From Bacteroidota bacterium (GTDB taxonomy: Bacteria; Bacteroidota; Ignavibacteria; UBA10030), in contig JAKAJH010000002.1 in the NCBI GenBank assembly GCA_021813905.1, forward strand, positions 1-64,000: 64,000 bases of DNA. Direction: 5' to 3'. Position 1 is the first letter of the stretch. Each line of letters opens with the position of its first letter. This document shows, piece after piece, positions 1-14,640 of the stretch. The notes beneath the pieces are model-generated. The model saw only the letters and a list, made by a program, of their open reading frames with translations. It was not told where the DNA came from and did not search any database. A program made the translations under genes and the position numbers.

Positions 1-113
1 TTAGTGCCATTCGCCAACAAAGGATGTCGAACAGATAAGATCATGAGCTTTGCTGCCAACAGTGCCGTTTCACCTTTCGTGCTCGCGCGCAGCTTAGCTC
101 CCACACGTTAGGC
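1..113 (+). repeat. attC site 1 (left part cut by window edge)
   Basis: This is the 3' part of an attC site, nearly identical to attC 3 over its whole visible length. It ends with the arm GCGCGCAGCTTAGC and the box GTTAGGC at 107-113. About 38 bp, holding the RYYYAAC box and first arm, must lie left of the window if it matches the other sites in length. Confidence 0.85.
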
Positions 114-131
114 AGCGCGCCTTTACTTGTG

Positions 132-740
132 ATGAAACCTTCGATGAGATCTCTTTGGCTCTTCACGCTTCTATTCTTCCTCATGCCGTGCGCGGCTCTG
201 GGTACCGCACAGACACCAGAAGACTCGCTTGCACAGAGAGAGTTCTCTCCCTCATATGTCGCGACATTTACGTGTGCGCTTTTCCCCGGCGCCGGAACAC
301 ACGATTGGATTCCCACACTTGCCATTCGTGCCGGATACGGCTTTTACCTCGACAAGCGCACCACGCTTTCCGCTTTTGTGGAATACGATCACTACAAACT
401 TGGTCAAAGTGGTGGCTTGTCTTCGTATTCCTCGCTTTCGCCGAAGCGCACTGACATCGCCCTGTACGCGTCTATGGCAATGGTGCAAACGATCGAAATT
501 GGTTTTGGGGTGGCTTATTCGGCCTCTGATGATGTCACGTACAATACTCCAGACGGGCATTCGGGCTCCTGGCCCAATGCGGGCAAAGCAGAATTCAGGA
601 CCTATCTTTCTGTGGGCGTTCGCTATGCAATTTCAATCACCCACGCGCTCTCGGTGCCTGTAGGCATATACTACCGCGCACTCGACTATGGTACCGAAAG
701 TTCGCCTGCGGTAAGAATCGGCATCCAGTGGCTTTTTTAG
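132..740 (+). CDS. Cassette 1: secreted outer-membrane beta-barrel-like protein
   Basis: This 202-residue protein has a clear N-terminal signal peptide (hydrophobic residues about 9-25, cleavage near Ala-Leu-Gly-Thr-Ala). Alternating polar/apolar strands follow, and the C-terminus ends in Trp-Leu-Phe. A terminal Phe after short amphipathic strands is typical of outer-membrane barrels. ATG 132 is preferred over GTG 129 directly before it. The gene fills one integron cassette: the GTTAGGC box ends 18 bp upstream and its own attC begins 10 bp after the stop. A paralogue sits in cassette 4 (2469-3077). No specific function can be assigned; a small porin-like or adhesive barrel is a guess. Confidence 0.72.
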   Translation: MKPSMRSLWLFTLLFFLMPCAALGTAQTPEDSLAQREFSPSYVATFTCALFPGAGTHDWIPTLAIRAGYGFYLDKRTTLSAFVEYDHYKLGQSGGLSSYSSLSPKRTDIALYASMAMVQTIEIGFGVAYSASDDVTYNTPDGHSGSWPNAGKAEFRTYLSVGVRYAISITHALSVPVGIYYRALDYGTESSPAVRIGIQWLF

Positions 741-750
741 CAGGCGCGCT

Positions 751-902
751 GCCTAACAGGTCGCTCAAGCTGACGCGCGAAGAAGGCTTTAGTGCCGAAA
801 GCCGGCAAAAGGATATCAAACAAATGAGATCAAGAGCCTTGCTGCCGACAGTGCCAGGCGAGCCATTCAGCTCGCGCGCAGCTTAGCTCCCACACGTTAG
901 GC
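751..902 (+). repeat. attC site 2 (complete)
   Basis: The site runs from GCCTAAC (751-757) to GTTAGGC (896-902). The inner arms at 763-778 and 874-887 pair perfectly except for two extra bases, C766 and A773, in the left arm. Such unpaired bases are what gives a folded single-stranded attC its strand polarity. Its left box complements the TTAGGC that opens cassette 1, as expected for one excisable unit. Confidence 0.9.
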
Positions 903-928
903 CGCCGGCGGCCGAAAGGACTCGAAGA

Positions 929-1492
929 ATGGAATGGCAGAACACATCAAGTCTCTCTTCACTCAAGTACAAATGCGGGTACTGCAATTACGTTGTCGCT
1001 TCGACCGTCGGCTACTACTCAAAATCTCGCACCGGCGCAGACAGACATGTCTACATTTGTCCCAACTGCCAGAAGCCCACTTACTGGGACTACAATTCTC
1101 TCGTCCCAAGCCCGATACCGGGATCTGACGTCACGCATCTGCCGCAGGAGGTCGCAGGGCTGTACCTTGAAGCACGAAGATGCATGGCCGTCGAAGCCTA
1201 TACCGCTTCAGTTATGGCTTCCCGCAAGCTTCTTATGAACATAGCCGTTTCAAAGGGCGCATCACTTGACAAGTCTTTCCTCGACTACGTCCAATTCCTA
1301 GCGACAAAAGGCTTCGTACCTCCCGACGGTACTGGCTGGGTTGACCACATCCGCAAGAAAGGTAACGAAGCCAATCACGAGATCAAGCTGATGGGCAAGT
1401 CCGACGCCGAAGACTTGGTTCAGTTCAGCGAAATGCTTCTTCGCTTCGTCTTCGAGTTTCCAAACCGAATTCCAAAGCCGCCGGCGGCCTAA
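929..1492 (+). CDS. Cassette 2: DUF4145-type protein with N-terminal zinc ribbon
   Basis: This 187-residue soluble protein starts with a zinc-ribbon-like pair of cysteine knuckles (CGYC near residue 16 and CPNC near residue 44). A helical region resembling DUF4145 follows, with the signature-like stretches AYTASVMASRKLL and GNEANHEIK. DUF4145 proteins are frequent in defence islands and mobile cassettes; their biochemical role is not settled. There is no signal peptide. The stop codon (TAA, 1490-1492) lies inside the first box of the following attC, so the cassette end supplies the terminator codon. Family assignment is by pattern recognition; function is unknown. Confidence 0.75.
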   Translation: MEWQNTSSLSSLKYKCGYCNYVVASTVGYYSKSRTGADRHVYICPNCQKPTYWDYNSLVPSPIPGSDVTHLPQEVAGLYLEARRCMAVEAYTASVMASRKLLMNIAVSKGASLDKSFLDYVQFLATKGFVPPDGTGWVDHIRKKGNEANHEIKLMGKSDAEDLVQFSEMLLRFVFEFPNRIPKPPAA

Positions 1493-1637
1493 CAGGTCGC
1501 TCAAGCTGACGCGCGAAGAAGGCTTTAGTGCCGAAAGCCAACAAAGGATGTCACACAGATAAGATCATGAGCTTTGCTGCCGACAGCGCCGTTTCACCTT
1601 TCGTGCTCGCGCGCAGCTTAGCTCCCACACGTTAGCC
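1487..1637 (+). repeat. attC site 3 (complete)
   Basis: The site runs from GCCTAAC (1487-1493) to GTTAGCC (1631-1637), 151 bp, with the same arms as attC 2. Its centre is nearly identical to the visible part of attC 1. The left box belongs to cassette 2, which opens TTAGGC. The right box TTAGCC belongs to cassette 3 and is matched by GGCTAA at the far end of that cassette. Confidence 0.9.
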
Positions 1638-1651
1638 CGCGCAACTTGTCA

Positions 1652-2299
1652 ATGAAGGCGCCCGTCATGAAGCATGCGATTGTGCCCCTCCTTTTTACCA
1701 CGCTTCTCGTCTCATGCGTGTCGTTCTTGCCGTATCGCTCGACAAGCTACAGACTGATGGAAGTCGATTCGTGCGCAGTGGGCGAAGCCTTGATATCCGT
1801 TTGCAATGGCTACATACCAAGCACCGACTCTACGAACTTCTTCGGTTACGAGGCAGAACTTGTGTATACGGGTACCTCCGGTTCGGTAATCCACTTGACG
1901 TACCGCGAGTACGAAACTGATATTCGCGGTACGTACATTCGTCCGGCCTTCTCTCTACCGATCATGTACGATCTTTCAACGGACAAGCACATCGTCTTTC
2001 GCAAGTACGCTATTGATATCATAGACGCATCCTCCTCTAGATGTGTGTTTCGAGTTGTACGCGACAATTACTCCGTCCGAACGGAGCTTCGTGCATCTCA
2101 TACTACTCCACCAGTAGTTCTATTGCCCGTCGACAAGCGCCGTCACGTTAGGATCCGCACTGCTGGCGGCTCGCTCGACGTCTTCATCGTCGCTGAAACA
2201 GACTCAAAGTATTACGTCTCAAAGGAGCGTGAGCCAACCGACTCACCGGGCGGCTTGCCAAAGACAGCCGTACTCGAGATTTCAGATCTGCCCAACTAG
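1652..2299 (+). CDS. Cassette 3: predicted lipoprotein of unknown function
   Basis: This is a 215-residue protein if read from ATG 1652; a second possible start, ATG 1667, gives a tighter signal peptide. A hydrophobic stretch ends in Leu-Val-Ser-Cys, a plausible lipobox, so the mature protein would be lipid-anchored at that Cys. The rest is rich in Tyr, Thr and Arg with a beta-type pattern. No family is recognised. It is the only gene of its cassette, has no visible promoter of its own and is flanked by attC 3 and attC 4. Cassette-borne lipoproteins of unknown role are common in large chromosomal integrons. Confidence 0.68.
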   Translation: MKAPVMKHAIVPLLFTTLLVSCVSFLPYRSTSYRLMEVDSCAVGEALISVCNGYIPSTDSTNFFGYEAELVYTGTSGSVIHLTYREYETDIRGTYIRPAFSLPIMYDLSTDKHIVFRKYAIDIIDASSSRCVFRVVRDNYSVRTELRASHTTPPVVLLPVDKRRHVRIRTAGGSLDVFIVAETDSKYYVSKEREPTDSPGGLPKTAVLEISDLPN

Positions 2300-2306
2300 T
2301 TGCGCG

Positions 2307-2450
2307 GGCTAACCGGTCGCTCAAGCTGACGCGCGAATGAGGCTTCGGTGCCGTTAGCTGGCAAGATTGGAAGTAGATCACAAGTTTAGGTTATCACGCT
2401 GCCGTTCGAGCCTTTCAGCTCGCGCGCAGCTTAGCTCCCACACGCTGGGC
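2307..2450 (+). repeat. attC site 4 (right box degenerate)
   Basis: The left box is GGCTAAC (2307-2313) and the arms are conserved. The right box reads GCTGGGC (2444-2450) instead of GTTRRRY. The essential second base of the cleavage triplet GTT is changed, so recombination at this junction is probably impaired. The central part is also more diverged from the other sites. Confidence 0.85.
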
Positions 2451-2468
2451 AGCGCGCTTACACCTTTA

Positions 2469-3077
2469 ATGAAAGATTCGGTGAGAATTCGCCGGCTGCT
2501 CATATTTGTCATTTCTTTCTTGCCGTGCGCGGTTGCAGGCGCCGCACAATCGCCGGCTGATTCTACCGCGCAGAAGAAAGTCTCGCCATCCGAGATTGCA
2601 GCCTTTACAGTCACGTTTTTTCCCGGAGCTGGAGTACACGATTGGATCCCGACAATAGCTCTTCGTGCGGGTTATGGTTTGTCTCTGGATAAGCGGATGA
2701 CGCTCCGAGCCCATCTAGAGTATTCGCACTACAGGCTTGGTGAAAACGGTGGTTTGTCGACGTATTCCACTCCCTCAGCTCGGCGACATGACATCTCCCT
2801 ATACGGAGGTCTCGTGATCGTACATATTGTCGAGATCGGATTCGGCGTGAGCCACACCGAGGCTGACGCCGTCACATATACTTCCCCGGACGGGCACTCC
2901 GGAGCGTGGGCAAGTGGTGGCAAATCGGAGTTCGTACCATATCTCAGTATCGGCGTTCGGTACGCCGTTCCAGTTTGCCAGAGACTATTGCTCCCCATCG
3001 GAGTATACTACCGCGCGCTCGACTATGGTACCGAGAGTTCGCCTGCGGCAAGAATCGGCATCCAGTGGCTCTTTTAG
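2469..3077 (+). CDS. Cassette 4: secreted beta-barrel-like protein, paralogue of cassette 1
   Basis: This 202-residue protein has a signal peptide (hydrophobic residues about 9-24) and a C-terminus ending in Gln-Trp-Leu-Phe. It is colinear with the cassette 1 product without obvious gaps and shares blocks such as FPGAG, HDWIPT, RAGYG, TPDGHSG-like and YYRALDYGTESSP. ATG 2469 is chosen because upstream codons lie inside attC 4. The last roughly 100 nt are about 95% identical to cassette 1 (five differences seen), far closer than the remainder. The function is unknown; an outer-membrane location is inferred from the C-terminal Phe. Confidence 0.72.
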   Translation: MKDSVRIRRLLIFVISFLPCAVAGAAQSPADSTAQKKVSPSEIAAFTVTFFPGAGVHDWIPTIALRAGYGLSLDKRMTLRAHLEYSHYRLGENGGLSTYSTPSARRHDISLYGGLVIVHIVEIGFGVSHTEADAVTYTSPDGHSGAWASGGKSEFVPYLSIGVRYAVPVCQRLLLPIGVYYRALDYGTESSPAARIGIQWLF

Positions 3078-3087
3078 CAGGCGCGCT

Positions 3088-3112
3088 GTCTAACAGGTCG
3101 CTCAAGCTGACG
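3088..3112 (+). repeat. Truncated attC site 5 (left half only)
   Basis: GTCTAAC (3088-3094) is followed by the left arm GCTCAAGCTGACG, after which similarity to the other attC sites stops. No GCGCGCAGCTTAGC arm or GTTRRRY box is found in the next several hundred bases. The site is therefore broken and marks the right-hand limit of the array. Confidence 0.75.
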
Positions 3113-3299
3113 TGGAAAGAGGCGCCAGTATTGAAAGTCAGCAAATGAACATCTCAAGCCAAATCACCCCTTGGGTTGCTGGTGCCAATTCTCAGAATGT
3201 TTCTTCTGTTTGCTGCGGTCGTGTGAGTGTCGCCTGAGCACCCGATAGACGCCCTGGTGTGACCCAAGGTAGGTGTTGGTCACGACAGAGTTTTTGGTG

Positions 3300-4115
3300 T
3301 CTGTGAATCAGTATTCGATGTGGCTGCGCCACCAGGCCTTCGTTGGCTTCAAGATGCGTCGAATGTCGTTCTTGCATTGTCGAATCCATCGCAATACCGC
3401 TGGCGTCTGGTAAGGCGAGAACTTGTCCAGGATCGGCAAATCCGTTCGCGGACGAGATGGCCAGACGAACTCGCTCGACCACTTCCAGCATTCTCTTCGA
3501 ACACTTGCGAATTCTGAACCATCCCCGCGTCCGGACGTGATGGACAACCAACCGTTTGAAGAAGTGCTGAACGCCGGGAGGTTTGGTGTAGTCGGCCGGC
3601 AAGCGGTTCGGCTGCCCTGTGTCAGCCCGACCGTAGTCATGTGAGGGCCGTGGTTCCAGCGGTCCGAACGCATCGAAGCACAGAACGACGCTCCTCTATG
3701 TAGCGTCGGTACAAACGGACCACCCGCTTCCTTTCACATCGAAGTTCCGCTCGCTCGAAAGTTTTCAGGTCTTCGTCCGTTGGAGCCGCACCTTCTTGGC
3801 GTCCACAATCCTCGCCAAGGTCTGAAGTCCGATGGAACGAACCGCCTTGCGGGTGATCAGGAACCGACGGAGCTTCCCGAGCCTTCACCTGCTTTTGGTC
3901 TGCTCCTCTGAGCTGATCCTCGGCCGGCAACCGGAGCCTTGCCTTCGCTTCAGGATCTCAATGCCCTCGCCATTGAAGAGCAAACTGAGCTTCCGGATAT
4001 GCTCTTTGCGCAATTGTGTCACCTCCTCGATCTGGCTGGCTCGGAAGGCTTGATCGGACACCAGCGCCGCTCGGACGCGAAGCCCTCCCCGTGGTACCAC
4101 CATAACATCCTCCAT
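3300..4115 (-). pseudogene. IS630-family transposase remnant, multiply frameshifted
   Basis: Read on the minus strand across three frames, the fragments line up with an IS630-type DDE transposase. A helix-turn-helix/GRP-like part comes first (VRAALV, then CRPRISSEEQ, 3885-4115). A middle segment follows (TLARIVDAKKVRLQRTKT, about 3770-3860). A C-terminal catalytic part ends the series (LDKFSPYQTPAVLRWI and AWWRSHIEY, 3308-3450). Active relatives read LDN.SPH and SWLN.IE there, so both frame and catalytic surroundings are damaged. It lies between the broken attC 5 and the first core gene. No terminal inverted repeats could be fixed by eye. Confidence 0.72.
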
Positions 4116-4331
4116 CCTCGTTTCACATTCCTGGTATAGAGGGAAGGAAAGTTCTGAATCCACCGCAACGCTCCGCCCCGTCATCACGGCACAGTGCGGA
4201 CGTCCGGATTCACCGCCACCGAACCAGGAACCCGCCTGGCTGCGATTACCGCGCCACTCCGATACTCCATTCCCCCTTGGCCGATCAGCCGTGGCCAAGC
4301 TCACACGTGCAGCAAATCCACGTCTGGGATC

Positions 4332-4359
4332 TTGCCTTTCCACTGTCTTCTCGTATATT
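4332..4359 (+). promoter_or_regulatory. Predicted sigma-70 type promoter for the DUF6588-type gene
   Basis: TTGCCT (4332-4337), a 16 bp spacer and TATATT (4354-4359). This predicts a start near 4366 and a leader of about 70 nt holding the 4376-4393 inverted repeat and a strong GAGGAGG ribosome-binding site at 4421. Confidence 0.55.
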
Positions 4360-4433
4360 TGTGCTACCCATTGATGGCCGATAGGTATCGGCCGGGCCAT
4401 CTCCACCACCTATCATCTTTGAGGAGGCGTCTT

Positions 4434-5462
4434 ATGCGTTCAACTTTGCGAACTGTTGTAGTAGTGCTGTCTGTGCTCTTCCTTGTTGCATCCATGGCAA
4501 CCGCGCAAGACCTTTCGCAGCAAATCGCGAAACTGGGTCACAATGCCGCCGTCAGTTACGTCACGCCCCTGTTCCAGGGATGGGCGGCGGATCTGAATTC
4601 GGCGATCTATCATTCGGCCGACCTCCACGACATTCTGGGATTCGACATCGGCGTGAAGATCAGCGCAGCGCGGATCCAGGATGAAGACAAGACCTACCAG
4701 TTCACGATGCCTTCGACGTTGACGGTCAGCTATCCGGGATTCGGCAGTGTCGTTCTGACGGGCGGCGCCAACGGTTCCGGCAACTACGATCTGGTCACCA
4801 CGGCCCCTACTGCGGTCGGTGCGAAAGATGCGGTTCCGATCACGATCCGCAATTTGACCGGCGCCGCCAGCGCGCTGAACGGGAAGGAGATCGTAAGGCT
4901 GCCCGGCGGCTTTGCCCCCGGTGCGATCGGTGTGCCGCTTGTGGCTCCCCAGGTTGCCATTGGATTGCCGCTTGGCTTCGAAGTGATCGGTCGATTTATT
5001 CCGACCGTCAAGCTTGGCGACTACGGGAAGATCAACTTCCTCGGCTTCGGACTGCGCCATGACATCGATCAGTACATCCCGATGTGCCCGGTGGACATCG
5101 CGATCCACTTTATGACGCAGAAGTTCACCCTCAAGGACTCGGCGGATAGCAATATCCTGACAGGCTCGGGCACCGCCTTCGGCGTCGAGGTGAGCAAGAA
5201 GCTGTTCATCCTGACACTCTACGGCGGTCTGCAGATTGAAAGCGGCAAGTTCGAGCTTTCGGATTTCAAGGCAACGTATGTTGATCCGGCATCGCAGTCC
5301 CTTGTCACCGGCACCGTTCCCGGTTTCACCATCGAGAGCAAGAATAAGTCCCGCTTCACCGTCGGTGCGCGGCTGCTGCTGCTGTTCATCAACGCCCACG
5401 TGGAGTACAGCTTCGCCAAGATGCCTGTCCTGGCGGCCGGAGTCGGCATCACCCTGCGCTAA
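4434..5462 (+). CDS. DUF6588-type secreted/outer-membrane protein
   Basis: This 342-residue protein has a signal peptide (hydrophobic residues about 6-22, cleavage after Ala-Thr-Ala-Gln). It resembles the DUF6588 family of FCB-group bacteria: a long Gly-rich region, PLGFEVIGRFIP in the middle, and several beta hairpins ending in a strand that closes with Leu-Arg. ATG 4434 is chosen because a GAGGAGG box lies just upstream and the signal peptide begins there; the frame stays open upstream without coding character. An outer-membrane barrel or surface role is likely, substrate unknown. It is monocistronic between its own promoter and the hairpin at 5521. Confidence 0.75.
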   Translation: MRSTLRTVVVVLSVLFLVASMATAQDLSQQIAKLGHNAAVSYVTPLFQGWAADLNSAIYHSADLHDILGFDIGVKISAARIQDEDKTYQFTMPSTLTVSYPGFGSVVLTGGANGSGNYDLVTTAPTAVGAKDAVPITIRNLTGAASALNGKEIVRLPGGFAPGAIGVPLVAPQVAIGLPLGFEVIGRFIPTVKLGDYGKINFLGFGLRHDIDQYIPMCPVDIAIHFMTQKFTLKDSADSNILTGSGTAFGVEVSKKLFILTLYGGLQIESGKFELSDFKATYVDPASQSLVTGTVPGFTIESKNKSRFTVGARLLLLFINAHVEYSFAKMPVLAAGVGITLR

Positions 5463-5490
5463 CCGCGTCGATTGCGCCGTCCGGAGCGCT

Positions 5491-5519
5491 TGCCCCGCGG
5501 CGAAAATCTGCGTATCTTA
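5491..5519 (+). promoter_or_regulatory. Predicted typA promoter
   Basis: TTGCCC (5491-5496), 17 bp, TATCTT (5514-5519). The predicted start near 5526 lies inside the left arm of the terminator hairpin at 5521-5557. Confidence 0.5.
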
Positions 5520-5520
5520 G

Positions 5521-5560
5521 AAATGCCTCAGACGCTCATGCAGTCTGAGGCATTTTTATT
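5521..5560 (+). terminator. Rho-independent terminator after the DUF6588-type gene
   Basis: A 13-bp perfect stem (AAATGCCTCAGAC, 5521-5533, with GTCTGAGGCATTT, 5543-5555) and a 9-nt loop, followed by a T-rich run. Only 21 bp separate it from typA. Confidence 0.85.
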
Positions 5561-5581
5561 TTCCTATCGGATCGGACGTTG

Positions 5582-7441
5582 ATGACTTCTCAGGAACAAA
5601 TACGAAATATCGCCATTATCGCACACGTGGACCACGGCAAGACGACGCTCGTGGATTACATGCTGCGCCAGACAGGGACCTTTCGCGCCAACCAGGAGGT
5701 CGGCACGCGGGTGATGGACTCGAACGAGCTCGAGCGCGAGCGGGGAATCACCATTCTCGCGAAGAATACCGCGGTACTCTACTCGTCGCCGACCGATGGG
5801 CAGACCTACAAGATCAATATTGTCGATACGCCGGGCCACTCGGATTTTTCCGGAGAGGTGGAACGGACGCTGAAGATGGTCGACGGCGTGCTTCTGCTGG
5901 TCGATGCTGCTGAAGGACCGCTCCCCGGCACCAAGTTCGTCCTGAAGAAATCGCTCGACCTCAACCTGCACCCCATCGTGGTGATCAACAAGATCGACCG
6001 CAAGGACGCCCGGGCGCACGAGGTTCTGGACGAGGTTTTCGAGCTCTTTCTCGCCCTGGGTGCCCACGATCATCAGCTCGATTTTCCGACCATCTATTGC
6101 GTGGCCAAGCAGGGAATTGCCATGCACGAGCTCGAGCACGAAGGCAAAGATCTCCTGCCCCTGTTCGAGACCATCATCAAGCATGTGCCGCCGCCTGCCG
6201 GCGATCCCGCGCTCCCTTTCCAGATGCTCGTGACAACCATCGATTACAACGACTATCTCGGTCGTCTTGGCATCGGACGCATCAATCGCGGCACGATCCG
6301 TCTGGGAGAGCCGCTCAAGGTCATCCGGCGCGACGGCAGACTCGAGGATGCCCGCGTCACCAAGATCTACACGTTCCAGGGCCTGAAACGCAGCGAGGTC
6401 GAGACCGCCGGAACCGGCGATATCATTGCCGTGGCCGGAATGGAGGATGTGGATATCGGCGAGACCATCACCGACGCCTCCGATCCCGCGCCGCTCCCCT
6501 TCGTCTCCATCGAAGAGCCCACCCTCTCGATGAACTTCGTGGTCAACAACTCGCCGTTCGCGGGACAGGAAGGCAAATTCGTCACCACCCGGCACCTCGG
6601 CGAACGCCTCGCGCGCGAATTGCGCTCCAATGTGAGCCTCCGTGTCGAGCTCACCGACTCTCCGGATATCTTCAAGGTGAGCGGCCGCGGCGAACTTCAC
6701 CTCGGCGTGCTGATCGAAACCATGCGACGGGAAGGCTACGAATTCCAGGTCTCACGACCGGAAGTGATCATGAAACGCATCGACGATGTGCTGTGCGAGC
6801 CGGTGGAGCACGTGATCATCGATGTGCCGGACGAGTTCGTCGGGGTCGTCATGGAGAATCTCGGCCAGCGCAAGGGCGAGATCCGGAACATGATCCAGAA
6901 CCAAGGGAATACGCGACTGGAGTTTGTCGTGCCGGCCCGGGGCTTGATCGGATTCCGGTCCGAATTCATGACCCAGACCAAGGGCACCGGTATCGTCCAT
7001 CATAATTTCCACGGCTACGAGCCGTACAAAGGCGACTTGTCCCACCGGACTCGCGGCGCGCTCATCGCGCTCGAAGACGGCACCGCCGTCGCCTATGCCA
7101 TGTGGAAACTCCAGGAGCGGTCGGTATTCTTCCTCGACCCGGGGACCCGGGTCTATGCCGGCATGATCGTCGGCGAGAACTCCCGCGAGCAGGACATGGT
7201 CGTCAATGTGTGCAAGACAAAGCATCTGACGAACATGCGTGCCTCAGGAGCCGACGAAGCGATCCGCCTGGAAACGCCGCACATCATGACGCTCGAGCAG
7301 GCGATCGAATGGATCGGCGACGATGAGCTTGTCGAAGTCACGCCCAAATCCATCCGCCTGCGCAAACGCTGGCTGGACCACAACGAACGTAACCGGCGCG
7401 CCCGGAAGAAGACCGAAGAATTGACCGACGACGACGCGTGA
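5582..7441 (+). CDS. typA: Ribosome-associated GTPase TypA/BipA
   Basis: TypA/BipA is a translational GTPase related to EF-G that binds the 70S ribosome and supports large-subunit assembly and growth under cold or stress. The 619-residue length is normal for the family. Visible G motifs are AHVDHGKTT (about 14-22), the RERGITI switch (about 54), DTPGHSDF (about 82) and NKIDR (about 136). The C-terminal half holds the BipA-specific region with GRGELHLG and RGLIGFRSEFMT. ATG 5582 is taken over the adjacent TTG. The gene is preceded by a promoter that overlaps a terminator; the next gene follows 30 bp downstream. Confidence 0.97.
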   Translation: MTSQEQIRNIAIIAHVDHGKTTLVDYMLRQTGTFRANQEVGTRVMDSNELERERGITILAKNTAVLYSSPTDGQTYKINIVDTPGHSDFSGEVERTLKMVDGVLLLVDAAEGPLPGTKFVLKKSLDLNLHPIVVINKIDRKDARAHEVLDEVFELFLALGAHDHQLDFPTIYCVAKQGIAMHELEHEGKDLLPLFETIIKHVPPPAGDPALPFQMLVTTIDYNDYLGRLGIGRINRGTIRLGEPLKVIRRDGRLEDARVTKIYTFQGLKRSEVETAGTGDIIAVAGMEDVDIGETITDASDPAPLPFVSIEEPTLSMNFVVNNSPFAGQEGKFVTTRHLGERLARELRSNVSLRVELTDSPDIFKVSGRGELHLGVLIETMRREGYEFQVSRPEVIMKRIDDVLCEPVEHVIIDVPDEFVGVVMENLGQRKGEIRNMIQNQGNTRLEFVVPARGLIGFRSEFMTQTKGTGIVHHNFHGYEPYKGDLSHRTRGALIALEDGTAVAYAMWKLQERSVFFLDPGTRVYAGMIVGENSREQDMVVNVCKTKHLTNMRASGADEAIRLETPHIMTLEQAIEWIGDDELVEVTPKSIRLRKRWLDHNERNRRARKKTEELTDDDA

Positions 7442-7471
7442 GCGGAGCAATGTCTCCGCTCCGCCGTATCC

Positions 7472-8629
7472 ATGTTCGCCCGACGGACACACTGGAACAC
7501 CCGGCCCAACGCCCTGACGACGCTGCTCGAAGAGAAGCAGCGCTGCGGCGAGACGGTCATCGATCTCACGCGCTCCAATCCCACCCGCTGCGGATTCTCC
7601 TATCTCCCTCCTGACGCCCTGGCCCCGCTGTCACAGGCAGCCGCCCGGCAGTACGAGCCGCACCCGCGCGGTCTGTTGACCGCACGCAAGGCCGTCGCCG
7701 CGCTGTATGCGGACAGCCGCATCCTTTCCCCCGCGGATGTGGTTCTCACAGCCTCCACGAGTGACGCGTATGCAATGCTCTTCCGTTTGTTGTGCGACTT
7801 CGGCGATGGGATCGCCGTGCCGCGACCCAGCTATCCATTGCTCGAATACCTGTGCGATCTTGCCGATGTAGAACCGATGCCGTACCGCCTTTCGCTCGAC
7901 GACGAATGGTCGCTCGACGTGGCTTCGGTCCTTCGGTGCATCGACGCCGGCGCACGCGCGGTGATCCTCGTGCATCCTAACAATCCCACCGGGACGTGGG
8001 TGCGTCCGGAGGATCTCGCGCAGATCAGCCGGCACGCCGCTCGCGAGGGTTGCGCTATCATTCGGGACGAGGTCTTTGCACCGTACACGTGGTCCGACCG
8101 CAGCGATCCGACGCATGGATACGATCGTGAAACGCCGGCGCTCACGTTTTCGCTGAATGGCCTGTCGAAATGGGTGGGACTTCCACAGCTGAAGCTCTCA
8201 TGGATCACACTGGCGGGTCCCGCATCGCTGCGCCGCGAAGCGCTTGAGCGACTGGACGTCATCGCGGACACGTTCCTTTCCGTCAATACGCCTGTCCAGG
8301 TAGCGTTGCCCGATCTTCTCCGGCTGGGACCCACCGCCCACGCGGCCATTCGCGAGCGCATTCTCCGGAATCTTGGTGCCGTGCGGACCGCATGCCGCAA
8401 TACGGCCGCGACGCTCCTTCCCGCCGACGCGGGGTGGTACGCCATGCTGCGTCTCCCCCGCACGAAGACAGATGACGAATGGGCCATGCACGTGCTTCAA
8501 CACGCAAACGTGCTGGTCTATCCCGGACATTTCTTTGATGCGGACGATGATGCGCTCATGGTCATCAGTCTCCTTCCCCCAAAGCGGGAAATAACCGACG
8601 GTATCTCCGCGCTGCTTCAGCAATTATGA
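7472..8629 (+). CDS. PLP-dependent class I/II aminotransferase
   Basis: This 385-residue fold-type I enzyme shows NPTG (171-174), the Asp of DEVF (199) that pairs with the pyridine nitrogen, and the Schiff-base lysine in LSKWVG (about 233). It should transfer an amino group between an amino acid and a 2-oxo acid in the cytoplasm. The substrate cannot be told from sequence; the closest look is to aspartate/alanine/aromatic-type class I enzymes. It begins 30 bp after typA without a clear ribosome-binding site, so co-transcription with typA is likely. A perfect AT-rich hairpin lies downstream at 8655-8678. Confidence 0.88.
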   Translation: MFARRTHWNTRPNALTTLLEEKQRCGETVIDLTRSNPTRCGFSYLPPDALAPLSQAAARQYEPHPRGLLTARKAVAALYADSRILSPADVVLTASTSDAYAMLFRLLCDFGDGIAVPRPSYPLLEYLCDLADVEPMPYRLSLDDEWSLDVASVLRCIDAGARAVILVHPNNPTGTWVRPEDLAQISRHAAREGCAIIRDEVFAPYTWSDRSDPTHGYDRETPALTFSLNGLSKWVGLPQLKLSWITLAGPASLRREALERLDVIADTFLSVNTPVQVALPDLLRLGPTAHAAIRERILRNLGAVRTACRNTAATLLPADAGWYAMLRLPRTKTDDEWAMHVLQHANVLVYPGHFFDADDDALMVISLLPPKREITDGISALLQQL

Positions 8630-8654
8630 CATTTCGCACCGTTTGCCAGGACGC

Positions 8655-8678
8655 TGCAATTAACAAAATTTAATTGCA
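8655..8678 (+). terminator. Perfect AT-rich hairpin after the aminotransferase gene
   Basis: TGCAATTAA (8655-8663) and TTAATTGCA (8670-8678) form a 9-bp stem with a CAAAAT loop. No T-run follows, so it may be a weak terminator, a 3'-end stabiliser or a protein-binding palindrome. Confidence 0.4.
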
Positions 8679-8780
8679 CCCGCCTTGCTTCTCCCTTCGC
8701 GGTTGGCTAACATGCCCGCAACAGTCATGAGGTCGTTCGACAATCGGTCTGTCACAACACATTTCAGAGGAGAATCTGCC

Positions 8781-9098
8781 ATGAAGAAACTTTTGCTCGT
8801 TCTCACGCTTGCGTTCGCCGTGGTCGCCGGACCGGCATTGCTCGCTCAGGAAAAACCTGCCGAGAAGAAGCCGGAAGCGGAAAAGAAGACGGAGAAGATG
8901 GAGAAGAAAGCAAAGAAAGCCGAGATGAAGGCGAAGAAGGCTGAAAGGAAAGCGAAGAAGGCCGAGAAGAAAGTGAAGAAGGCCGAACTGAAGACGAAAG
9001 AGGCAAAGAAGGCGGTAAAGGAAGAGAAGAAGGAACTGAAGGAAGAAAAGAAAGAAATGAAGGAAGAGAAGAAAGAGCTGAAAGAAGAGAAGAAGTAA
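8781..9098 (+). CDS. Small secreted Lys/Glu-rich helical protein
   Basis: This 105-residue protein has a clean signal peptide (residues about 1-21, ending Leu-Leu-Ala-Gln). The mature part is composed almost only of Lys, Glu and Ala with a few Met, Leu and Thr. It falls into two blocks: units like KKAE repeated about every 4-7 residues (about 27-75), then EEKKELK/EEKKEMK units of seven residues (about 76-105). Alternating i/i+4 Lys-Glu pairs predict a single long charged alpha-helix. A good AGAGGAGA site precedes ATG 8781; the frame upstream is non-coding. A periplasmic spacer, cell-wall or nucleic-acid-binding role is possible; nothing decides between these. Confidence 0.75.
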   Translation: MKKLLLVLTLAFAVVAGPALLAQEKPAEKKPEAEKKTEKMEKKAKKAEMKAKKAERKAKKAEKKVKKAELKTKEAKKAVKEEKKELKEEKKEMKEEKKELKEEKK

Positions 9099-9123
9099 TT
9101 CTCTGCGATTTCAGGACGTTCAG

Positions 9124-9159
9124 AACGGCGAGGGCTTCGGTTCTCGCCGTTTCTTTTTG
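9124..9159 (+). terminator. Rho-independent terminator between convergent genes
   Basis: The stem AACGGCGAG/CTCGCCGTT with a GC-rich loop is followed by TTCTTTTTG. It ends the Lys/Glu-rich gene and faces the end of the K+ channel gene 11 bp further on. Confidence 0.8.
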
Positions 9160-9170
9160 TCCCGCGTCGA

Positions 9171-10175
9171 TCAGGCCCCGGACAGCGTCGCCCGCAACGC
9201 GGTGACCCGCTCGGCGGTTCCGATCACGATGAGGATGTCGCCGCCTCCGATGATCGTATCGGGCGGCGGATTGAAGAGGTACTGCCCCGACTCGTCGCCG
9301 CGTTTCATCGAGACCAGAACGACTCCCGCCGCGGAGATCTCTTCGCACTCGCTGATCCTCTTTCCGATGCACGGCGAATGTTCCGCCACGCGAGCCTGAT
9401 CGACCCGCAGGGCGGCATCATCCCGGAGCATCGTGTCGAGAAAGGTTGTCGTTTCCGGCCGGACGAGTTCCGACGCCATGCGTAACCCGCCGATATAGCT
9501 GGCCGAGACGGCAGCATCGGCGCCGCTGCGCAGAAACTTCTCGCGGACCGCTACGTCGTCCAGCTTTGCGATGATCCGAAGATTCGGATTCAAGCCCCGC
9601 GCGGTAATAACCACAAACAGATTGTCCTTGTCCTCCGGAAGCGATGTGATGAGTCCCGCCGCCCGGTCAATGCCGGCTTCCTGCAGAACGCGGTCGTCCG
9701 AGGCTTCGCCCGCGATCGCGGGAATCTCCCGCAAGATCAGATCCTGCACCTTCTTTACGTCCTTTTCCACCACCACAACCTTCCGTTTCGTCCGGACGAG
9801 CTCATCGAGCACATAACACCCGTTCCTGCCCGCGCCACAAATGATGTAGTGGTTCGTCATTCGTTTGACTGAACGCTCCATCTTGCGTCTCCTCAGAATT
9901 CCCGCAATCCCGCCCTCAACGACGAATTGCGTCACTTCAGAGATCCCGTAGAGGATGATCCCCATTCCTCCAAGGATCAGAAAGATCGTAAACGCCCGGC
10001 CCGGCATGGAAAGCGGATGCGTCTCACCGTATCCCACCGTCGCGAGCGTGATGACCGACATGTAGAGCGCATCGAAGAATGACCAGCCTTCGATCAGGTG
10101 ATAGCCGAGCGTGCCTGCGAGCAGGATCAAGACCAGCAGGCCGACAATCTGAAGGCCATGTCGGGCTGAGCTCAT
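9171..10175 (-). CDS. Two-TM potassium channel with RCK (TrkA-N/TrkA-C) domains
   Basis: This 334-residue membrane protein has TM1 (about 8-25), a pore loop with the K+ selectivity filter TVGYGE (46-51) and TM2 (about 60-80). A Rossmann RCK/TrkA-N domain follows, with the nucleotide motif GAGRNG (114-119), then a TrkA-C domain (about 250-330). The architecture is that of MthK/GsuK-type ligand-gated K+ channels, whose RCK rings bind Ca2+, nucleotides or c-di-AMP. Its start overlaps the stop of the upstream Lon-like protease by 4 bp, implying translational coupling. It may belong functionally with the osmotic genes at 44-54 kb; that is inference. Confidence 0.92.
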   Translation of the reverse strand: MSSARHGLQIVGLLVLILLAGTLGYHLIEGWSFFDALYMSVITLATVGYGETHPLSMPGRAFTIFLILGGMGIILYGISEVTQFVVEGGIAGILRRRKMERSVKRMTNHYIICGAGRNGCYVLDELVRTKRKVVVVEKDVKKVQDLILREIPAIAGEASDDRVLQEAGIDRAAGLITSLPEDKDNLFVVITARGLNPNLRIIAKLDDVAVREKFLRSGADAAVSASYIGGLRMASELVRPETTTFLDTMLRDDAALRVDQARVAEHSPCIGKRISECEEISAAGVVLVSMKRGDESGQYLFNPPPDTIIGGGDILIVIGTAERVTALRATLSGA

Positions 10176-12661
10176 TGCGCCACGGCTCCGCCGTCAGTGA
10201 TCGGCCCGCGTTCGAACATGCGCCATTCCGTCGCGAACCGTCGCAGTTTCTCATCGGCCCGCGCACAGACCGTTCCCGGCTCGAAAGCCATGCCCCTCTG
10301 CAAGCCCGACTTCACGCCGGTCAGGATCTCGATGCCGTCATCGATCGTCCGCACGGCATAGATGCGGAATTTCCCCCGGCGCACAGCGTCGTACACATCT
10401 TCGCGCAGCATCAGGTCGGGAACGTTCTGCCGTGGAATGATCACGCCCTGCGATCCGGTGAGTCCGCGCGCGTTGCAGATGTCGTAGAATCCTTCAATTT
10501 TCAGATTCACGCCGCCGATCGGCTGTACCTCACCCTTCTGGTTGACCGACCCCGTCACGGCGATATCCTGACGGATGGGAACATCCGCAAGACTCGAAAG
10601 AATCGCATAAATCTCGGTCGACGACGCGCTGTCGCCGTCCACACCGCCGTAGGACTGCTCAAAGGTGATGCTGGCATCCATGACAAGCGGCTTGTCCTGG
10701 GCGAAACGGCTGCGGAAGAACCCGCCCAGGATTGCGACGCCTTTCGTATGCGTCGGACCACTCAACTCCGCCTCGCGTTCGATGTTGATGACGCCGCTGC
10801 GCCCGACCGCCGTACGTGCCGTGATCCGGGCCGGCTTGCCGAATTCGTGCTCGCCGATGGCGTACACGGACAGTCCGTTCACCTGTCCCACCACCGCTCC
10901 GCTCGTGTCGATCATGATCGATCCCGTCTCGATCATCTCCTGGAGCTTGTCCTCCACCAGTTGCATCCGGTAGATCCGCTCGGCGATGGCCTTCTCCACG
11001 TGGTCGCCGGTCACGACCGCCGAACGCCGTTTGCCGGCCCAGTAGTTCGCCTCCCGTGCCACATCGGCAATCACGTTGAAGCGCGTGGAGATCTTGCGCT
11101 GATTGCCGGCCAGCCGGACGCCGAACTCGATGATCTGTGCGAGCGCCGTCGCGTCGAACGGCCGCAGCTTCTCGTCGTCGCACACCATCTTCACGAACCG
11201 GACGTACTGGGTGACCGCGGTTGCGCTCTTCGGCATCTCGAAGTCGAAATCCGCGCGGACTTTGAAGATCTTTTTGAAGTCGTCGTCACGGGCGTACAGC
11301 ATGTGGTACACTTCTGAATCACCGATCATGATGACCTTGACGTTGATCGGGATCGGTTCGGGTTTCATGCCGGTCGCCGGGATGCCGACGGCAGTCTCAT
11401 ACGTCTGGATATCGACCAGGCCGGTCCGGAGCGAGCGCTTCAGATCCTGCCACACGCCCGGCTCGATGAGTGTGTCCAGTGCGTTCAGCACCAGATAGCC
11501 CCCGTCGGCCTGCAGCAGAGAGCCCGCCTTGATCAGCGTGAAATCGGTCCGCCACACGCCTCCTTTGTCCCACTGGCGCTCGACCGTGCCGAAGATATTT
11601 TTATACTTCGGGTTGGTTTCGATGATGATCGGTACGTGCGGCGTGTCGGCGTTATCCACGAGCACATTCACTTTGAATTCGATGAAATCGTCCGCCGCCG
11701 CCTCTTCCTCGCCGTCATCCTGGGGGGTCTGGATCTGCGATTTCCGGAACCGATCCAGGTTGGCCGCGATGTGAGCCCGCGCGTCGTCCAGGTACTGGTG
11801 GATCCTTGGATGATCATACGTCGCCCGCACGACGCGAAGCACTTCGTCCACCGTCGGCATGACTATTTGCTCTTCCAGCTCCCGGAGCGACTGCTGCACC
11901 TTCTTCTCAATGTTCCGCAGTTCCCGGAATACCGTACCCATCTGCTTTTCCATCTCCCCCAACTCCACGCGCAGCGCATCGAACTGCTCGTGCGTCATTT
12001 CCCCTTTCTGCACGAGCTGGTCCACCTGCTCGAGCGGCGTCGGATTGCCGCCGATCAACGGCACAATCTCCGGTCGCGTCACCGGACCAACCTGCACCTG
12101 AATGAGGTCCAACCCCCGCTCCTTGACCCGACGCTCGAAATCCTGCAACAGGCTGCGCTGGCGGTCCTGGAAATGCTGCATCGTGTTCTTACGGGCCTGC
12201 TGGTACCGCTGGCCTTCGTAGACGGCGGGAATGTCACGCAGCAGGTCGGCAAGGACCGTTTCCATATCCTGCCGGAACGCGCGTCCCTGTCCCGCCGGCA
12301 CGGCAATGGCGGTCGGCGTGTCTGGATTCTTGAAGTTGAAGACGTAGACGTGATCGAGCGCTTCCCCCCGTTTCTGCTCGAACTCCTGGAGCATCCGCTT
12401 GATCGTCGTCGTACGGCCGGTACCGGACAGTCCGCTCACAAAGATGTTGTAGCCGAAATGGTTCATTTCGAGGCCGACGCGGAGGGATCGCAAGGCGCGT
12501 TCCTGACCGATGATCTCCCGGGACGGTTTCACATCGCTCGTCGTGCGAACGCCGAGCGACTTGGGGTCGCATTGCCAGCGGAGCTGCTTCAACGGTACGG
12601 AAGGATGGACGGAGGCCCGTTTGATCGGCGGGTCGGATTTGCGTGGTCGTGTTCGCTTCAT
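10172..12661 (-). CDS. Lon-related ATP-dependent protease (S16 family, LonB/COG1067 type)
   Basis: This 829-residue protein has an N-terminal AAA ATPase part with Walker A GLSGTGRTTT (about 77-86), a long insertion with helical, coiled-coil-like segments (about 160-330), and a C-terminal Lon protease domain. The catalytic dyad is Ser in GDSASS (about 673) and Lys in VNLKIEG (about 718). It lacks the N-terminal substrate domain of classical Lon, which is encoded separately at 23436. The start chosen is ATG 12661, which follows a predicted promoter; the frame remains open for 183 nt upstream without support. It is co-transcribed with the K+ channel through a 4-bp overlap. Confidence 0.9.
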   Translation of the reverse strand: MKRTRPRKSDPPIKRASVHPSVPLKQLRWQCDPKSLGVRTTSDVKPSREIIGQERALRSLRVGLEMNHFGYNIFVSGLSGTGRTTTIKRMLQEFEQKRGEALDHVYVFNFKNPDTPTAIAVPAGQGRAFRQDMETVLADLLRDIPAVYEGQRYQQARKNTMQHFQDRQRSLLQDFERRVKERGLDLIQVQVGPVTRPEIVPLIGGNPTPLEQVDQLVQKGEMTHEQFDALRVELGEMEKQMGTVFRELRNIEKKVQQSLRELEEQIVMPTVDEVLRVVRATYDHPRIHQYLDDARAHIAANLDRFRKSQIQTPQDDGEEEAAADDFIEFKVNVLVDNADTPHVPIIIETNPKYKNIFGTVERQWDKGGVWRTDFTLIKAGSLLQADGGYLVLNALDTLIEPGVWQDLKRSLRTGLVDIQTYETAVGIPATGMKPEPIPINVKVIMIGDSEVYHMLYARDDDFKKIFKVRADFDFEMPKSATAVTQYVRFVKMVCDDEKLRPFDATALAQIIEFGVRLAGNQRKISTRFNVIADVAREANYWAGKRRSAVVTGDHVEKAIAERIYRMQLVEDKLQEMIETGSIMIDTSGAVVGQVNGLSVYAIGEHEFGKPARITARTAVGRSGVINIEREAELSGPTHTKGVAILGGFFRSRFAQDKPLVMDASITFEQSYGGVDGDSASSTEIYAILSSLADVPIRQDIAVTGSVNQKGEVQPIGGVNLKIEGFYDICNARGLTGSQGVIIPRQNVPDLMLREDVYDAVRRGKFRIYAVRTIDDGIEILTGVKSGLQRGMAFEPGTVCARADEKLRRFATEWRMFERGPITDGGAVAQ

Positions 12662-12736
12662 GGGTAGACGTTGTCCGTGCGGATCTGGCCGTTCCCCGGC
12701 GGCCAGGGTTGGGTGCCGCCATTTGACGACTGCACG

Positions 12737-12765
12737 ATGGTACGCAAAAGAGGCGCGAGTGTCAA
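12737..12765 (-). promoter_or_regulatory. Predicted promoter of the Lon-related protease / K+ channel operon
   Basis: On the minus strand, TTGACA (12765-12760), exactly 17 bp, then TACCAT (12742-12737). It lies 76 bp upstream of ATG 12661. Confidence 0.55.
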
Positions 12766-12783
12766 CGCGGGAGAAAACGCGAA

Positions 12784-12806
12784 CGCCCGGAGGAGCTCTC
12801 CGGGCG
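12784..12806 (-). terminator. Hairpin terminator downstream of dnaA
   Basis: A perfect 9-bp GC-rich stem, CGCCCGGAG/CTCCGGGCG, followed on the minus strand by TTCGCGTTTTC. It sits 31 bp after the dnaA stop codon. Confidence 0.65.
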
Positions 12807-12836
12807 CGCACGATGCACACACTCAGCGAAACGATG

Positions 12837-14267
12837 TCACGCATTCATCGTGATGCGCTTCCGGAGACGCTCCAGTTGCTGGCGGAAGGCGTCGTCCCGC
12901 TTCGCATTCTCCTCCACCGCCTGACAGGCGTGGATGACCGTGCTGTGATCCCGCCCGCCGAAATGGAGGCCGATCGTCTTCAGCGAGGAATTGGTCAGTT
13001 CCTTGGCAAGGAACATGGCCGTCTGCCGCGCAACGACCACTTCCTGCTTCCGCGTCTTCGCGCGGACGAGGTCAACGGGAAGGTCGTAGTACTCGCACAC
13101 CTTCCGCTGGATTTCTTCGATCGTGAGCGGCGCGCGGAGTTCGTGTACAACGATGCGCAGCACATCTTTCGCAAGATCGATCGTCAGCTCGCGGCTCTCC
13201 AGCGATGCGCGGGCCAGCATGCTGATCAGGCAGCCTTCCAGCTCGCGAATATTGTTCGTCACATTGGCCGCAATGAATTCGAGCACGTCCTGGGGCAATT
13301 CGAGGCCGTTTTCCTGGCTCTTCTTCTGCAGGATCGCAATGCGGGTTTCCAGATCGGGGGCCTGGATGTCGGCCGTCAGACCGCACTGGAAACGGGAAAT
13401 GAGCCGGTCGTCAAGTCCTTTGAGTTCTTTCGGCGGCACGTCCGACGAGAGGACGATCTGTTTCCCCATCTGCTGCAGCGCGTTGAAGGTGTGAAAGAAA
13501 TTGTCCTGCGTCTTTTCCTTGCCGGCGAAGAACTGGATGTCGTCGACGATCAGCAGATCCATGCTCCGATAGAACTGCGAGAATTCTGCCAGCGTATCGG
13601 ACTGGATCGCCTCGACGAAGTCCACAGTAAACTTCTCGCTCGACACGTAGATGACCCGTTTGGCCTTGCCGGTCGCCAGGGCATGGTTGCCAAGCGCGTG
13701 CATCAGATGCGTCTTGCCGAGGCCGGTGCCGCCGTAGACCACGAGCGGATTGAACGAAGTGCCGCCGGGGTTATTCGCCACGGCCATGGCTGCAGCACGC
13801 GCCAGTTGGTTGCAGTCGCCTTTGATGAAGTTGTCGAAGGTGTACCGCGGATTCAGGTTGTCCCGCACCGCGAGCATATTCTCGGACCGAAGCGCGACGT
13901 GCGGAGCAAACGGACGGTGCTGCTCGACGGCTTGCGGGGGGGCAATTTCGGGTGCTGCCGAGGCCGGCTCGGGATTGTCCGCGCTGATCGCATAGAAGAG
14001 GCGGGCATCTTCGCCAAGGACGGCCATGATGGTATCCCGGATCAACGCGTTGTAATGCTCCTCGAGCCAGTCATAGAAGAACTGGCTGGGCACCTGGATG
14101 GTGAGGTCCTTCCCTGCCAGCCGCACCGGTGTGACCGGCTGGAACCACGTTTTGAAGCTGAGGGTCGAAACCTGATCTTTCAGGATGTTCAGGCATTGCT
14201 GCCAGACCTCAGATGCCGTGCGTGCGGGAATGATCGTGTGCTCGGAAACCGGGAGTGGGAGTGTCAT
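12837..14267 (-). CDS. dnaA: Chromosomal replication initiator DnaA
   Basis: This 476-residue DnaA has domain I (about 17-90), a short linker, the AAA+ domain III with Walker A GGTGLGKT (179-186) and Walker B LLIVDDIQF, and the DNA-binding domain IV with the signature GGRDHSTVIHA (about 440-450). It binds DnaA boxes at oriC, opens the duplex and loads the replicative helicase. It is transcribed away from the 495-bp non-coding gap (14268-14762) that carries DnaA boxes, divergently from rpmH. Boxes lying just upstream of its start suggest autoregulation. Confidence 0.98.
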   Translation of the reverse strand: MTLPLPVSEHTIIPARTASEVWQQCLNILKDQVSTLSFKTWFQPVTPVRLAGKDLTIQVPSQFFYDWLEEHYNALIRDTIMAVLGEDARLFYAISADNPEPASAAPEIAPPQAVEQHRPFAPHVALRSENMLAVRDNLNPRYTFDNFIKGDCNQLARAAAMAVANNPGGTSFNPLVVYGGTGLGKTHLMHALGNHALATGKAKRVIYVSSEKFTVDFVEAIQSDTLAEFSQFYRSMDLLIVDDIQFFAGKEKTQDNFFHTFNALQQMGKQIVLSSDVPPKELKGLDDRLISRFQCGLTADIQAPDLETRIAILQKKSQENGLELPQDVLEFIAANVTNNIRELEGCLISMLARASLESRELTIDLAKDVLRIVVHELRAPLTIEEIQRKVCEYYDLPVDLVRAKTRKQEVVVARQTAMFLAKELTNSSLKTIGLHFGGRDHSTVIHACQAVEENAKRDDAFRQQLERLRKRITMNA

Positions 14268-14640
14268 GTTGATCGGAGAAACGCGTCAGGGGTTCGTAAC
14301 AAGAACGCACAACTTATTCACAAACTTCCGCACAAAGCCGTTCGATCGAACTTCAATCGTGGACGGCGTTCACTGCGTACTTCACTTGAGTATCCGGTCC
14401 GAACTGCTTGCGGGGGCTTGATGAACTTTCCTCTGTGCACACCGTTATCAACATTCACACACAGAGGCAAAACCAACAATCAGAGCGGACGATTCAGCAC
14501 CTCCCGCCTGGAACGCAAGCTTATCCACACGTTGTCAACAGCCCGCAAGGCGTTCCAAAAGGGGGCGTGTATTATAACACCGATCCATCGAGTTTGCAAG
14601 AGGAATTATTACAATGACACGGGATAGTGAACGCTGCATG
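14268..14640. other. Predicted chromosomal replication origin (oriC) with DnaA boxes
   Basis: The dnaA-rpmH gap has no gene but several DnaA-box-like 9-mers on the plus strand: TTATTCACA (14314-14322), TTATCAACA (14445-14453), a perfect TTATCCACA (14521-14529) and TTGTCAACA (14532-14540), plus the palindromic CTGTGCACA (14433-14441). A 12-bp perfect palindrome, GTTCGATCGAAC, lies at 14340-14351. The stretch after the last boxes (14560-14625) is relatively AT-rich and could be the unwinding element. Genes diverge on both sides, as at most bacterial origins. Confidence 0.8.

Follow-up and report, generated by a model that had tools for sequence, protein, structure and literature searches.

Sedentary integrons of the Vibrio type carry arrays of tens of cassettes. 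The integrases of integrons prefer attC sites in which the extrahelical bases show T-N6-G spacing (PMC3053210), and complete integrons have already been reported in Chlorobi and Ignavibacteriae (PMC9024848). In chromosomal integrons the attC bottom strands are leading in 25 of 30 cases and lagging in 5 of 30, and the lagging-template orientation accompanies small arrays (PMC5371416). Inversion of a Vibrio array into the lagging orientation raised excision (PMC11023631).

The cassette array described here belongs to a genome of 3.08 Mb in 90 contigs, and the window, the whole stretch of DNA analysed, comprises bases 1-64000 of contig C28 (134,527 bp). Since base 1 of the window is also the end of C28, the array at this end is cut by the assembly and not by an arbitrary window edge. 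A genome-wide search located its remainder, with three more attC, cassettes, and an intact intI, at the end of contig C6. A complete sedentary chromosomal integron almost certainly sits between mfd and the DUF6588-typA pair; the window holds its distal part, with intI and further cassettes on C6. This agrees with the original prediction of the far end of an array. The features are as follows, in window positions unless C6 is named:

1..113, plus strand: attC with its 5′ side truncated by the contig end, starting about 36 nt into the element; R′ GTTAGGC at 107-113
107..895, plus strand: cassette A, a 202-aa exported beta-rich protein (132-740) with its attC; 16-nt perfect inverted repeat 107-122/742-757
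751..902, plus strand: complete attC; covariance model 42.6 bits, E 9e-10; bottom strand T-N6-G
896..1630, plus strand: cassette B, a 187-aa DUF4145 protein (929-1492); 17-nt inverted repeat 896-912/1477-1493
1487..1637, plus strand: complete attC; covariance model 39.9 bits, E 5e-9; T-N6-G
1631..2443, plus strand: cassette C, a lipoprotein-like protein of about 210 aa (~1646-2299); 19-nt inverted repeat 1631-1649/2295-2313 with one mismatch
2307..2450, plus strand: complete attC with R′ altered to GCTGGGC; covariance model 22.4 bits, E 3e-4; T-N6-G
2444..3094, plus strand: cassette D, the last cassette; its exported protein of 202 aa (2469-3077) is paralogous to that of cassette A
~3088..3153, plus strand: last attC, 3′ half lost; 78% over 71 nt; missed by the covariance model
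3160..4420, minus strand: stretch beyond the array that is non-coding or decayed and may be the remains of a transposase (weak HTH_29 match, E 0.018, below cut-off)
4434-5462, plus strand: DUF6588 outer-membrane-like gene of the right flank, near mfd in relatives
5579-7441, plus strand: typA/bipA of the right flank, near mfd in relatives
12837..14600, minus strand: dnaA and upstream DnaA-box cluster (14314, 14445, 14521), one of two candidate origins
C6:147-297, 832-975, and 1287-1430, opposite strand: three attC, inverted relative to the window sites, found by DNA search

All five of the homologous attC elements first noticed at the left end of the window are found, within 1-3153, although three of them are complete and not two as counted earlier. 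The other attC are 74-87% identical to the site at 746-904, so that the array is homogeneous in the manner typical of a chromosomal integron, as had been proposed. A covariance model trained solely on attC of other genomes, with none from the array itself, recovers all six complete attC (144-152 nt), including the three on C6 (each E 1e-6 or better), and also matches the attC of one class 1 resistance cassette. The covariance search that the original prediction called for therefore accepts these elements; across the whole genome it returns only array sites and one site on contig C45. The truncated element at 1-113 is 83% identical to the attC at 751-904 and gives a weak partial match (E 0.68). 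The bottom strands of the six complete attC form R and L stems, with the same L stem common to all and with extrahelical T and G six bases apart, and compensatory changes occur at 7 of 12 L-stem pairs among the relatives' attC from which the covariance model was built. The minimum-energy fold of C6:147-297 differed from the canonical attC fold, at this one site only. A strict structural attC scanner gave no matches in 166 kb of shuffled DNA, and a looser setting gave some. RNAalifold, run on the covariance-aligned attC of this array, returned a local fold that is rejected as spurious, because these sites are too similar to each other. Rfam gives no relevant match in the first 15 kb of the window or in the C6 array.

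Between the window attC lie single plus-strand genes, as anticipated, at 132-740, 929-1492, ~1646-2299, and 2469-3077, with short leaders of 25-33 nt in cassettes A, B, and D. The proteins of cassettes A and D are paralogues with 59% identity, and the structure prediction for the former gave no usable model (pLDDT of 36). The cassette B protein matches PF13643 (DUF4145) at 43 bits, above the cut-off, and is weakly similar to the anti-phage protein PD-T7-4 (E 2e-7), and from this weak similarity the gene at 929-1492 may be considered a candidate phage-defence cassette. No family was found for the cassette C protein, which, like the C6-cassette protein, looks like a lipoprotein by sequence. No resistance genes were recognised among the cassettes.

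In six of seven cassettes the opening bases can pair with the region of the cassette's own R″, over 16, 17, 19, 10, 10, and 17 nt; in the seventh the GTT core is lost. The local attC halves pair less well than the cassette ends (p = 1e-4 when pooled with relatives). Such complementarity is expected if each cassette was once a circle. Extended end complementarity was considered as a novel feature and rejected, because class 1 cassettes show the same behaviour, with end pairing of 12, 9, and 16 nt versus 7 and 5.

The integrase gene occupies C6:1988-3022 and is open and full length. Its product scores 429 bits against TIGR02249 (cut-off 265), and the best PDB match is IntI4 (2A3V; 314 residues, E 2e-81). 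Catalytic and integron-specific motifs are found at residues 131, 201, 266, and 290, and the protein carries the LPGALERK integron-specific patch together with the R/H-R/Y motifs. Some 560 bp separate the gene from the first C6 attC, and it is divergent from the cassettes, which run away from it; the orientation on C6 and in the window thus agrees with the earlier expectation that cassettes point away from intI. The region at C6 ~1970-1748 is probably attI, judging by its position and by the junction GTTAGTT (C6:1748), which lies after intI and before cassette 1. A promoter-like TTGACA-N17-TAGATT at C6:1970-1942 points toward cassette 1, with one such match found against 1.2 expected by chance.

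The C6 cassettes comprise two noncoding cassettes, one lipoprotein cassette, and a noncoding-type cassette cut by the contig end. The first two after intI are tandem 455-bp noncoding near-duplicates with 94% identity, located at 836-1748 on the minus strand in the C6 array, and the one at the contig end is a third, partial relative. In the noncoding cassettes no ORF is convincing, Rfam gives no relevant match, and the RNA fold is not unusual.

In joined order, the locus would begin with mfd (leftward), intI (leftward), and a probable attI with its rightward promoter-like site. These would be followed by the two tandem noncoding cassettes, the lipoprotein cassette, the cut noncoding-type cassette, the assembly gap, cassettes A to D, and the broken last attC. 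IntI would recombine the folded bottom strand of each attC; cassettes could then leave as circles and be reinserted at attI, to be expressed there from the promoter. We infer integrase activity, cassette expression, and turnover.

A decayed integron, with a platform still in place and an array that no longer changes, is unlikely but keeps appreciable weight. The broken last attC, the single R′ without a GTT core (GCTGGGC), and the 6% divergence of the duplicated noncoding cassettes would all be consistent with decay. However, the integrase gene is open, full length, and equipped with all catalytic motifs, and cores are intact in five of the six complete attC.

For the complete integron, which is the preferred reading, the order of the two contigs follows from synteny. 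In seven relatives mfd is adjacent to or near the DUF6588-typA pair, and in six of the seven it is divergent from the pair; the spacing is only 228 bp in the relative G006. In this genome mfd lies on C6 beside intI, and the DUF6588-typA pair lies on C28 beyond the array. The conserved neighborhood in relatives and its split across both contigs indicate that C6 and C28 join here, that the integron occupies the mfd/typA intergenic gap, and that the integrase lies to the left of the window, where it had been predicted. It is therefore very improbable that the window array is a CALIN (an attC cluster without integrase) and that the C6 intI belongs to a different array. The intI and the window array do sit on different contigs, and a separate integrase-less cluster is probably present in the genome, but on C6 the stretch from intI to the contig end contains attC of the same type, oriented compatibly, and the synteny sets C6 beside C28. 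The locus is chromosomal, between mfd and typA and near dnaA, and is not on a transposon or plasmid. The visible array, with eight attC on the two sides of the unsequenced stretch between C6 and C28, does not show the large size invoked earlier; the cassette and attC counts cover those two sides. Beyond the array, the stretch at 3160-4420 was considered as a multicopy insertion sequence, which is ruled out by its single copy in the genome.

Contig C45 has a further cluster that resembles a cassette array but has no integrase (3600-13300 region); its main genes are all on the minus strand. Within it are one attC, the site picked up by the covariance model (C45:7476-7584, 33.8 bits), and a pair of cassettes whose end repeats match (13262/12723, 19 of 20 nt, and 8134/7578). 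It also has a different family of attC-like repeats and what appears to be a homologue of the cassette C protein. The cluster is probably a separate integrase-less cassette cluster.

A genome-wide DNA search with one attC confines the repeat to the left end of the window and C6:1-1430, and the concern that the cassette repeats might be a family dispersed over the genome is thereby settled. A non-cassette repeat family (REP-like or transposon-derived) that separates genes by chance would fit homogeneous repeats of about 150 bp, but it can be dismissed given the restriction to two contig ends, the canonical attC ends and bulges, the adjacent intI, the compensatory changes in relatives, and the cassette-specific end complementarity.

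IntI occurs in 17 of 61 genomes in the search of relatives, the own genome counted, and intI in 105 of the 395 genomes of the phylum sample, about a quarter. The view that integrons are little described in this lineage is therefore only partly fair, considering these 105 genomes and the published reports (PMC9024848). G001, a genome from the same genus, has a completeness of only 55%, too little for a comparison of array turnover. In the relatives examined, intI lies at different loci, and no two of the integrons compared share an informative downstream (3′) flank that would mark a common insertion locus. The IntI tree is mostly without resolution at its deeper forks. The lack of a shared flank and the form of the tree suggest that platforms moved or were regained over time. 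One relative (G009:C7:1-20000) has 24 attC in 20 kb and offers a useful comparison array.

The array was also predicted to lie about 11 kb from the replication origin. The gene dnaA is indeed 11 kb away; it belongs to a dnaA-rpmH-rnpA region of canonical type, where three DnaA-box-like sites lie at 14.3-14.5 kb. About 73 kb from the array, however, are the minimum of the GC skew and another cluster of DnaA boxes. The dnaN-recF-gyrB-gyrA genes have moved to 76.4-83.9 kb on C28 (block C28:75970-83888), where dnaN is preceded by AT-rich intergenic DNA containing three DnaA-box-like sites, and cumulative GC skew reaches its minimum at 76.9 kb. The dnaN-side origin is the likelier of the two candidates, and with this skew minimum and DnaA-box cluster in front of dnaN the unusual closeness of the array to oriC becomes uncertain. 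Both genes were checked in twelve relatives: only in G040 do dnaA and dnaN fall on different contigs, and in the others they are neighbours. Here the two are about 62 kb apart, each with its own DnaA-box-like cluster, which is possibly a split bipartite origin.

Both candidate origins lie to the right of the array, and GC skew is negative on its left side, which indicates that the fork passes leftward through the array and that the bottom (minus) strand of attC is the lagging-strand template. It can be tentatively proposed, at somewhat less than even likelihood, that this is a natural integron fixed in the minority orientation, with a lagging template and cassettes facing the fork, near a split dnaA/dnaN origin region. 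If so, this orientation would make for a wild array of high turnover and limited size, with noncoding cassettes held in first position.

Taken as a whole, this is a real and fairly ordinary sedentary chromosomal integron of known type, and it leaves the general understanding of integrons unchanged. It documents a complete chromosomal integron with lineage-typical attC in a phylum sample of which about a quarter of the genomes carry intI, and it supplies a naturally lagging-oriented example for asking whether the size and turnover of an array are set by its orientation relative to replication. Of note in the cargo are cassette B, as a weak candidate for phage defence, and the noncoding duplicates; these duplicates, along with the lagging-strand orientation, are the most interesting points.

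Like the sedentary chromosomal integrons of Vibrio, Xanthomonas, and Treponema, this one has an intI divergent from head-to-tail, single-gene, short-leader cassettes and homogeneous, lineage-like attC, and it is chromosomally fixed between housekeeping genes. It differs from them in its mfd/typA locus and small visible size, and from most chromosomal integrons (25 of 30 leading) in that its attC bottom strands are on the lagging-strand template. The integrase resembles IntI4/VchIntIA of Vibrio cholerae (2A3V) over a 314-residue alignment with R, H-R, Y, and the integron-specific patch, although it is divergent in sequence; identity is about 51% to IntI1 and about 60% to the best IntIs of relatives. 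Class 1 cassettes such as aac(6′)-Ib and catB3 share the R/L box layout and the cassette-specific end pairing. Unlike class 1, however, the attC here are 144-152 nt long, compared with 60 nt for the class 1 site matched by the model, and the array is chromosomal, not on a transposon, and has no recognised resistance genes.
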